DNA from: Thermoplasmata archaeon | GTDB lineage: Archaea; Thermoplasmatota; Thermoplasmata; Lutacidiplasmatales; UBA184 | DNA length: 39,963 bases | Direction of reading: 5' to 3' | Assembly: GCA_021821785.1 (NCBI GenBank) | Contig: JAKACD010000001.1 | Coordinates: forward strand, 1-39,963 | In this document: one piece after another, positions 1 through 39,505 of the stretch | Position numbering within the stretch: the first letter of the stretch is position 1 | How the letters are laid out: each line of letters starts with the position of its first letter | Translations under genes and position numbers: made by a program | The notes under the pieces: generated by a model | Database searches by the model: none | The model's input: only the letters and a program-made list of their open reading frames with translations | Told to the model about the DNA's origin: nothing

Positions 1-74
1 GAGATTTGAACTCCCGTGGCGAGACCGCCACCAGCTTTCAAGGCTGGCGCCTTGCCGGGCTAGGCTACCTCAGC
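1..74 (-). tRNA. tRNA-Ser(UGA), 3' end cut off by the window edge
   Basis: On the minus strand the acceptor half GCTGAGG starts at 74. It is followed by TA, a D arm (GCC stem, loop, GGC), and an anticodon stem CCAGC/GCTGG around loop CTTGAAA with U33 and anticodon TGA. A long variable arm follows (TGGCG/CGCCA stem), which is the class II hallmark of tRNA-Ser, then a T stem GGGAG with loop TTCAAAT. The second half of the T stem and the acceptor 3' strand lie outside the window. There is no intron in the visible part. A TATA element 27 bp upstream fits. Confidence 0.95.
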
Positions 75-135: not shown

Positions 136-236
136 TGCAGGTGCCGGGAGATCCGCGGGGGACCGGAAGGTCCCGCCGTTTCGAACCCGGGTGGTCAGCT
201 TGGAGGGCTGACATCCTACCACTAGATTACACCTGC
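136..236 (-). tRNA. tRNA-Gly(UCC) with an intron in the T loop
   Basis: The acceptor GCAGGTG (236-230) pairs perfectly with CACCTGC (143-137), with discriminator A at 136. The D arm is ATCT/AGGAT. The anticodon stem TCAGC/GCTGA encloses loop CCTCCAA, giving anticodon TCC. The T stem CCGGG (190-186) pairs perfectly with CCCGG (148-144), but 37 nt rather than 7 separate the halves. Removing a 30-nt intron (179-150) restores the standard loop TTCGAAT and a 71-nt tRNA including the discriminator. Position 33 is C instead of the near-universal U. CCA is not encoded. A weak TATA-like ATTAAC lies near 275-283. Confidence 0.92.
150..179 (-). other. tRNA intron at position 59/60 of tRNA-Gly (bulge-helix-bulge)
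   Basis: This 30-nt insert meets the strict archaeal splicing motif. The exon TTCG pairs with intron CGGA, giving the 4-bp central helix. The two bulges are AAA (181-179) and TCT (151-149). The inner hairpin has 9 bp with one bulged C (175) and a TTCC loop, and the outer helix is the T stem itself. Cutting after the second nucleotide of each bulge gives the T loop TTCGAAT. The fold was worked out by hand. Confidence 0.85.
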
Positions 237-39370: not shown

Positions 39371-39473
39371 TAGCGGGGCATGGATTTGAACCATGGATCT
39401 ACGGGTTATGAGCCCGTCGGGATTTCAGGACGGCCGACCTCGTCGGTCGTTTTCCTGACTACCCTACCCCGCT
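39371..39473 (-). tRNA. Initiator tRNA-Met(CAU) with an intron in the D loop
   Basis: The acceptor AGCGGGG (39473-39467) pairs with CCCCGCT (39378-39372), discriminator A at 39371. A1-U72, and the three G-C pairs in the anticodon stem ACGGG/CCCGT around loop CTCATAA, mark it as the archaeal initiator. The T arm is CATGG TTCAAAT CCATG. Between the two halves of the D arm an extra 28 nt (39451-39424) form a hairpin; without it the D region has the same 21-nt length as the Haloferax volcanii initiator that I recall. Mature length is 75 nt including the discriminator. CCA is not encoded. Confidence 0.95.
39424..39451 (-). other. tRNA intron in the D loop of initiator tRNA-Met (bulge-helix-bulge)
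   Basis: The 4-bp central helix is exon CAGG (39457-39454) with intron CCTG (39429-39426). Both bulges are AAA (39453-39451 and 39425-39423). The inner hairpin is ACG-A-CCGAC over GTCGG-C-CGT with one A/C mismatch and loop GAG. Cutting after the second A of each bulge leaves the D loop intact, near position 20/21. The outer helix is the short D stem, four nucleotides away on the 5' side, which makes this side weaker than in the tRNA-Gly intron. Confidence 0.8.
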
Positions 39474-39497: not shown

Positions 39498-39505
39498 TAT
39501 ATAGG
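39498..39505 (-). promoter_or_regulatory. TATA box of initiator tRNA-Met
   Basis: CTATATAG, a palindrome, lies 25-32 bp upstream of the tRNA 5' end at 39473, matching the distance seen for tRNA-Ser. Confidence 0.7.

Follow-up and report, generated by a model that had tools for sequence, protein, structure and literature searches.

Short tRNA introns that share the BHB motif are described for the crenarchaeal Thermoproteales, Nanoarchaeota, Thaumarchaeota, some Euryarchaeota and Asgard archaea from soil in the portions of the literature drawn on here (PMC4090602, PMC8450103, PMC4033280, PMC11291895). In these groups the introns occupy the D-loop 20/21 and T-loop 59/60 sites and affect many tRNAs, and the soil Asgard archaea are on record as very intron-rich (PMC11291895). 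Initiators that need splicing are known as well: the initiator tRNA-Met (iMet) of Nanoarchaeum equitans is split at 37/38, while that of Thermofilum pendens is permuted at 59/60 and 37/38 (PMC3218864). On the side of the enzymes, reviews, in the sections used here, link non-canonical tRNA introns to endonucleases with an additional RNA-binding loop, and relaxed motifs, they state, call for an enzyme of the (alpha beta)2 or epsilon2 type that has a CSL or ASL loop (PMC6379350, PMC4033280). The alpha4 and alpha'2 enzymes are classed in the same review sections as narrow; (alpha beta)2 and epsilon2 alone are held to remove relaxed motifs efficiently, alpha'2 enzymes processing them inefficiently (PMC6379350). 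Species with a CSL or ASL loop tend toward diversified intron positions, according to an excerpt of PMC12397907, and an excerpt of PMC4033280 calls Korarchaeum the sole alpha2 archaeon with non-canonical introns and notes that it has the loop. The literature on relaxed-motif cutting by homodimeric enzymes is nevertheless divided. Homodimeric enzymes do cut bulge-helix-loop motifs according to the relevant section of PMC8707768, and the A. fulgidus alpha'2 enzyme cuts a bulge-helix-loop at 37/38 in full-length pre-tRNA, as given in the section used of PMC6379350.

The gene described here lies in a 39,963-nt stretch of DNA from a Thermoplasmata archaeon, which is called the window in the following. 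The window is part of contig C36 of a MAG of 1,685,664 bases in 99 contigs that is 91% complete. We take its genus to be that of Ca. Lutacidiplasma silvani, order Lutacidiplasmatales, following the part of PMC9287336 used here; the intron sequence itself is common to a genome placed in the window's genus (G402) and to Ca. Lutacidiplasma silvani AcS3-62. A preliminary description had read an initiator gene interrupted by a 28-nt intron near position 20/21, with symmetric AAA bulges and a CAGG/CCTG helix. Bulges and helix are present in the sequence as described, and the intron is confirmed by our reading of the gene, by the fold of the precursor and by the genes of the genus. We are highly confident that this is the organism's initiator tRNA-Met gene, carrying an archaeal BHB intron of 28 nt at 20/21 that, to judge from the sequence, would be excised by an alpha'2 endonuclease, with the exons joined by RtcB. 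The parts of the locus are the following.

39371..39473, minus strand: pre-tRNA of the initiator tRNA-Met (CAU), 103 nt with the intron and 75 nt spliced, read by hand
39452..39473, minus strand: 5' exon with the 5' strands of the acceptor and D stems and the D loop through G18 G19 A20 A20a, from the sequence and relatives
39424..39451, minus strand: D-loop intron, 28 nt, position 20/21, placed by the BHB register
39371..39423, minus strand: 3' exon, A21 to discriminator A73, from the sequence
39454..39457, minus strand: CAGG, exon strand of the BHB central helix, holding G18 G19, from aligned sequences
39426..39429, minus strand: CCTG, intron strand of the BHB central helix, from gene comparison
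39451..39453, minus strand: 5' splice-site bulge AA/A, from gene comparison
39423..39425, minus strand: 3' splice-site AA/A, within an internal loop and without an adjoining outer helix
39430..39450, minus strand: inner hairpin of the intron, 9 pair positions and a 3-nt loop, from covariation
39498..39503, minus strand: TATATA, candidate TATA box, 25-30 nt upstream of the tRNA 5' end, from the sequence

The marks of an initiator are all present: A1-U72, three G-C pairs in the anticodon stem, the CAU anticodon and the CTCATAA loop. A1-U72 and the three anticodon-stem G-C pairs are known marks of archaeal initiators. The exons form a 7-bp acceptor stem, an ACGGG/CCCGT anticodon stem and a normal T arm, and by eye an ATA stands at an offset matching that of the candidate TATA box in most genus loci compared. 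A1:U72 is also named as a feature of eukaryotic iMet (PMC8450103). After removal of the intron a 75-nt tRNA with all arms of normal size is left, whose predicted exon-exon junction reads CAGGAAATCCC and whose D loop, CAGG-AAA-TCCC, has the length found in sister genera without the intron. Computed without modifications, the minimum fold of the spliced 75-mer differs from the cloverleaf. The Rfam model RF00005 matches 39371-39444 with 34.6 bits (gathering 29), and the true 5' exon, 39452-39473, falls outside this match because the model aligns with the 3' exon and fills its 5' part with intron sequence. ARAGORN, run with the bacterial code, reported zero tRNAs across the whole window; tRNA counts for judging MAGs can overlook the tRNAs of such lineages.

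Within the genus an exact match to the anticodon arm was found in 31 of 37 genomes, giving 32 genes, and the intron was present in all 32 read. A 32nd genome holds an initiator copy that is truncated at a contig end and also has the intron, for a total of 33 initiator genes in 32/37 genomes, 33/33 of them interrupted. The patterns used gave no initiator match in the other five of the 37, nor in two genus genomes of the phylum sample; four further genus genomes of that sample (G271, G329, G377, G402) carry the intron. The absence of a second, intron-free initiator, on which the preliminary description depended, held up: none occurs in the window's own assembly or in the 32 of 37 genus genomes with an initiator gene, although with a MAG that is 91% complete a second initiator could be missing from the assembly. 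We also scanned contigs with one fixed D-arm pattern, which other D-arm sequences would escape, and a D-loop insert of 20-50 nt, and obtained 69 loci, labelled as 64 Thermoplasmata (UBA61 and UBA184 among them), one Ca. Lutacidiplasma silvani, two Euryarchaeota and two bacteria. The last two (L071 and L125, labelled Acidobacteriaceae and 'bacterium') hold initiator genes of the Lutacidiplasmatales type and are probably mis-binned.

For the conservation of the exons we used the 67 genes of the Lutacidiplasmatales type, L091 and L108 being set aside for their differing exons. The 32-nt stretch of 3' exon past the search pattern is identical in 65/65 genes that reach that far (of the remaining two, one agrees as far as read and one ends earlier), and the 5' exon stretch has a single variable base (A in 59, G in 8). 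The splice sites are almost as constant: the 5' bulge is AAA in 65 genes, AAC in one and ATA in one, the 3' bulge is AAA in 64 and AGA in three, and the intron strand of the central helix is CCTG in 65 and ACTG in two.

Pairing was followed in an alignment (A1) of 43 sequences, namely 42 distinct ones from 66 matching loci plus the window. They were selected for a 31-nt insert between CAGG and TCCC and for exons fitting a fixed pattern, so that the invariance of the exons in A1, CAGG included, is imposed by the selection; 24 of the 69 scanned genes have other insert lengths and were left out. All four pairs of the central helix are formed in 43/43 sequences, CAGG being part of the selection pattern. 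In the inner hairpin, 7 of the 9 pairs show a double-sided change in at least one of the 43 sequences, and 93.5% of the cells are paired. Double changes occupy 30 cells compared with 8.9 in shuffles, which do not preserve the relatedness of the sequences, and 0/500 shuffles reached as high. Over the whole structure 98.2% of the cells are paired, against 34.7-48.1% when the structure is slid along the alignment; sliding by -2 also gives 7 pairs with double changes, but only 15 such cells. Across A1, 25 of the 33 pairs are invariant, and the inner pair 28-40 is unpaired in 14/43 sequences.

The splice sites of the initiator form a BHB motif in relaxed form, AA/A, CAGG/CCTG, AA/A. The strict hBHBh' motif is absent, with 0 contiguous outer pairs beside the 3' bulge, the D stem GGG/CCC of the precursor being separated from the 3' site by unpaired UAGU/U. 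The inner helix is there and the outer helix is absent, and the motif is of the relaxed HBh'/bulge-helix-loop type. The precursor fold beats 200/200 shuffles (z -4.78), and the outermost and innermost pairs of the central helix have probabilities above 0.9 in 43/43 aligned sequences. In every one of the 43, the BHB conformer lies above the computed minimum of the free RNA, at a mean of -48.8 vs -51.8 kcal/mol and thus with a mean gap of 3.0 kcal/mol, and a competing pair, 21-44, which intrudes on the 5' bulge, exceeds a probability of 0.5 in 22. The window is the worst case (BHB form -44.3, minimum -49.5 kcal/mol, gap 5.2) and the sole one in which the inner pair 25-43 falls below 0.5, at 0.05; both are due to an A.C mismatch at one of the nine inner-hairpin pair positions of the window sequence.

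The type of splicing endonuclease, which the preliminary description had named as a point to settle, is alpha'2 homodimeric, with dimerisation predicted from the sequence. One ORF of 364 aa, on contig C98 outside the window, holds two PF01974 repeats in one frame, and no second PF01974 ORF was found in the window's own genome even at E 10. Its PDB matches are 5x89, 1r0v, 2gjw and 1a79. The stretches KYGAHFRAY, NAHARY and VRKEF align with like residues in the relatives shown, and we take Tyr, His and Lys in the C-terminal repeat to be the catalytic residues. The closest solved relatives are 5x89, a 359-aa EndA-like protein, and the A. fulgidus and M. jannaschii enzymes, the species of the matched chains being taken from the part of PMC6379350 used here. 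At the place where enzymes of the A. pernix type have the specificity loop our enzyme reads YGSRVGDRLELSLIE, equal in length to the native A. fulgidus sequence YGSEKGDLVTLSLIE; chain 3p1y has 10 extra residues there and is presumably the A. fulgidus enzyme carrying an engineered loop. A CSL/ASL insertion between YGS and LSLIE of the catalytic repeat occurs in 0/29 aligned Thermoplasmata sequences. The ligase RtcB is encoded as well (PF01139, E 7.1e-173). Among 61 relatives, 55 have a PF01974 match, and most show two repeats of one ORF. A single additional weak match occurs in each of the genomes G055, G057 and G059. In G011 a strong match in a short contig-edge ORF (L152, G011:C108), besides that genome's two-repeat ORF, comes either from a duplicate contig of a strain or from a genuine additional copy.

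The preliminary description had further noted that two of the three tRNAs in the window have non-canonical introns and had suggested that the genome is rich in them. Both statements proved right. The two are iMet and a tRNA-Gly:

136..236, minus strand: pre-tRNA-Gly(TCC) with a 30-nt T-loop intron, 150-179, at 59/60; central helix 4/4, the T stem serving as outer helix

The third, tRNA-Ser(TGA) at 1-74 (minus strand), is truncated by the contig end and has no intron in the part that remains. What seems to be the same gene stands complete at the end of contig C51, with 15 upstream bases shared, probably an assembly overlap. Across the assembly, RF00005 at E 10 gave 37 matches, one of them the contig-end duplicate of Ser-TGA, and a model of our own, R1, added His-GTG and Pro-GGG, which makes 38 tRNA genes in all. 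Fifteen of these are interrupted, 13 of them non-canonically. By eye, the introns of Tyr and Leu-TAA sit at the canonical place; those of iMet and Arg-GCG lie in the D loop, and those of Asn, Arg-TCT, Arg-TCG, Ser-GCT, Gln-CTG, Pro-TGG, Ser-GGA, Gly-TCC, Ser-CGA, Asp and His in the T loop, so that 11 of the 13 non-canonical introns share one site, 59/60. With eleven T-loop introns, introns of the BHB type are common in this genome. These tRNA and intron counts are lower bounds, and Ala-GGC, Thr-TGT, Glu-CTC, Pro-CGG, both Ile, Trp, Leu-TAG and Lys-TTT were not encountered by RF00005 or R1.

Ten of the T-loop cases were scored by a script that weighed solely cuts restoring a T arm, a fit that is thereby imposed; in each there is one register that leaves a perfect T arm and gives five outer pairs. 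Four of them pair 4/4 in the central helix, five 3/4 and Asn 2/4; for Asn the T-arm-restoring register ranks second in the list of the script. Together with His, scored by hand at 4/4, the central helix is complete in 5/11 T-loop introns, and the outer helix is there in every case scored. R1 was built from four T-loop intron tRNAs of the own genome (alignment A3), all with a complete central helix, and scored the best 150 of 2,248 first-look candidates there. Its best matches lean to complete central helices because it was built from four such cases, and among these best matches are 24 T-loop loci of relatives, with an outer helix of five pairs in 24 and a central helix of 4/4 in 21. The Arg(GCG) intron (L132, G000:C53:560-611 and flanks) is 34 nt long, has a GTAG/CTAC central helix and lacks an outer helix when read in the register that yields a normal D loop. 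The two D-loop introns of the genome are thus relaxed (HBh' or bulge-helix-loop), since no outer helix abuts in the D-loop-restoring register. In a relative (L180, G038), a tRNA-Gln apparently has a short T-loop insert and another interruption near the anticodon.

In the phylum sample the initiator pattern occurs, among the matches listed, in 12 of 14 genus genomes, with the insert in 12/12, and in six of nine other genomes of the family, with the insert in G344 (genus g25) alone. The initiators of G096, G157 and G339 (g24), G241 (g26) and G397 (g27) lack it, as do those of G037, G038 and G039, the three genomes that represent the order's two remaining families in the sample. The D loop of the intron-free sister genera g24, g26 and g27 reads CAGG-NNN-TCCC; that of G038 is TAGG-AAA-TCCC, and those of G037 and G039 are one base shorter. 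A tree of 29 endonuclease sequences, from which G402 dropped out as its locus gave no endonuclease sequence, splits the intron-bearing g1 and g25 from all others with a support of 100. The simplest reading is one gain of the intron before g1 and g25 diverged, although the intron may instead have been lost in the remaining genera. In G146, the other genome of g25, the initiator pattern had no match. G053 and G060 belong to other families within the class and likewise have an intron at this D-loop position, as do L091 and L108. The initiator of L108 (isolate STF1_128) seems to be interrupted in both the D loop and the T loop, that of L219 (G052) seems to hold a T-loop intron with an uninterrupted D loop, and in L033 (G059) a partial D-arm repeat (TAGCCAGGAAATCCC) stands a few tens of bases upstream of an intact initiator.

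One may ask whether the insertion is removed at all, or whether it is a permanent extension of the D arm with which the initiator works in the form of an enlarged D loop. The computed folds would agree with this, as the isolated sequence prefers a stable extended D-arm hairpin over the BHB form. However, the junction bases obey the BHB rule in nearly all of the 67 genes while the hairpin varies, and removal restores the D-loop length of the intron-free sister genera. An extension that stays would lock G18 and G19 in a helix, and the 11 T-loop insertions of the same genome split the TTCRAAT loop, which is sensible only if they are spliced. We therefore regard retention as very unlikely. It is extremely improbable that we are looking at a pseudogene in decay while a normal initiator exists at another locus: a MAG that is 91% complete in 99 contigs would have room for such a second gene, but the invariant 3' exon stretch (65/65), the 5' stretch with its one variable base, the intact initiator features and the absence of intron-free copies from those 32 of the 37 genus genomes in which the gene was found all argue for a functional one.

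If the intron is real, a divergent second endonuclease or partner subunit could still be the one that removes D-loop introns, in place of the alpha'2 protein detected. The D-loop introns of this genome have no outer helix, and the statement that relaxed motifs need an (alpha beta)2 or epsilon2 enzyme with a loop (sections of PMC6379350 and PMC4033280) would fit such an enzyme. Against it stand the single PF01974 ORF at E 10, the relatives, most of which likewise have two repeats of one ORF, and the reported cutting of bulge-helix-loop motifs by homodimeric enzymes (PMC8707768, in the section used) and by the A. fulgidus enzyme at 37/38 (PMC6379350, likewise in part), and we consider a second enzyme unlikely. 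We are similarly doubtful that the initiator intron is a copy of an intron in some other tRNA of this genome, an origin proposed for the introns of Thermoproteales, which are reported to transpose between tRNAs (PMC4090602). At least 12 of the 78 pairs among the 13 introns have a shuffle p below 0.05, where about 4 are expected, but the lowest p of all 78 is 0.010, with no strong pair, and of the 12 pairs that include the initiator intron only that with His falls below 0.05 (0.033). Moreover, the shuffles kept base content only, and a shared hairpin and GC structure can explain the mild excess.

For the spliced BHB intron that we favor, the anatomy suggests the following course. The precursor would fold so that CAGG of the D-loop exon pairs with CCTG at the 3' end of the intron, leaving AAA at each junction; the alpha'2 endonuclease would cut behind the second A of each AAA, and RtcB would ligate the exons to a standard 75-nt initiator. 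We infer that cleavage and ligation occur, which enzyme is responsible and in what order processing runs. In the mature tRNA, G18 and G19, together with TTC of the T loop, form the elbow between D loop and T loop. Since CAGG contains G18 and G19, the precursor is without this elbow until it is spliced, and splicing should come ahead of elbow-dependent steps for D-loop and T-loop introns alike. At 59/60 the T stem adjoins the splice site as an outer helix, which should aid a narrow enzyme.

Whether the loop-less alpha'2 endonuclease of Lutacidiplasmatales processes many non-canonical introns, the relaxed D-loop intron in the only initiator gene included, is in our judgment evenly balanced. If it does, the CSL/ASL loop would be required neither for the spread of introns nor for relaxed motifs, the clustering of most introns at 59/60 would be accounted for by the T stem, which offers an outer helix from the start, and all protein synthesis of the genus would hang on one splicing event. 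The relaxed initiator intron is a natural in vivo test of loop-less alpha'2 enzymes on relaxed motifs. A loop-less, intron-rich clade would open the loop rule to a direct test that needs one purified enzyme and two substrates from nature, T-loop introns with an outer helix and D-loop introns without.

In the open-licence PMC literature we found, among the matches listed, no description of these tRNA introns of Thermoplasmata or Lutacidiplasmatales or of this initiator intron, and the word intron is absent from the main text of the Lutacidiplasmatales paper in the part used here (PMC9287336). The preliminary description had called a D-loop intron in an initiator unusual. This needs to be qualified, as D-loop introns at 20/21 (PMC4090602) and interrupted initiators (PMC3218864) are each known; what is surprising is their combination with a loop-less alpha'2 enzyme. 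The genome resembles those of the archaeal groups named at the outset in its motif, its short introns, its two sites and the many tRNAs affected. Unlike those groups, it belongs to the Thermoplasmata, its only detected endonuclease is alpha'2 without a CSL/ASL loop, and 11 of the 13 non-canonical introns found in it are concentrated at 59/60. Its initiator needs splicing, as do those of N. equitans and T. pendens, but it is a continuous gene with one D-loop intron, and this holds for all genus initiators found. With Korarchaeum cryptofilum, whose enzyme is alpha2 according to the excerpt of PMC4033280, it shares a homodimeric enzyme together with non-canonical introns; the Korarchaeum enzyme reportedly has a specificity loop, whereas the present one has no insertion there. 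The EndA enzymes of A. fulgidus and Thermoplasma acidophilum have two repeats in one chain, as here, and are listed as narrow in the section used of PMC6379350, whereas the present genome has 13 non-canonical introns, of which two lack an outer helix. Non-canonical BHB introns are a known kind; what sets this case apart is how many of them a Thermoplasmata lineage with a loop-less alpha'2 enzyme carries, one of them, relaxed, in the only initiator gene found.
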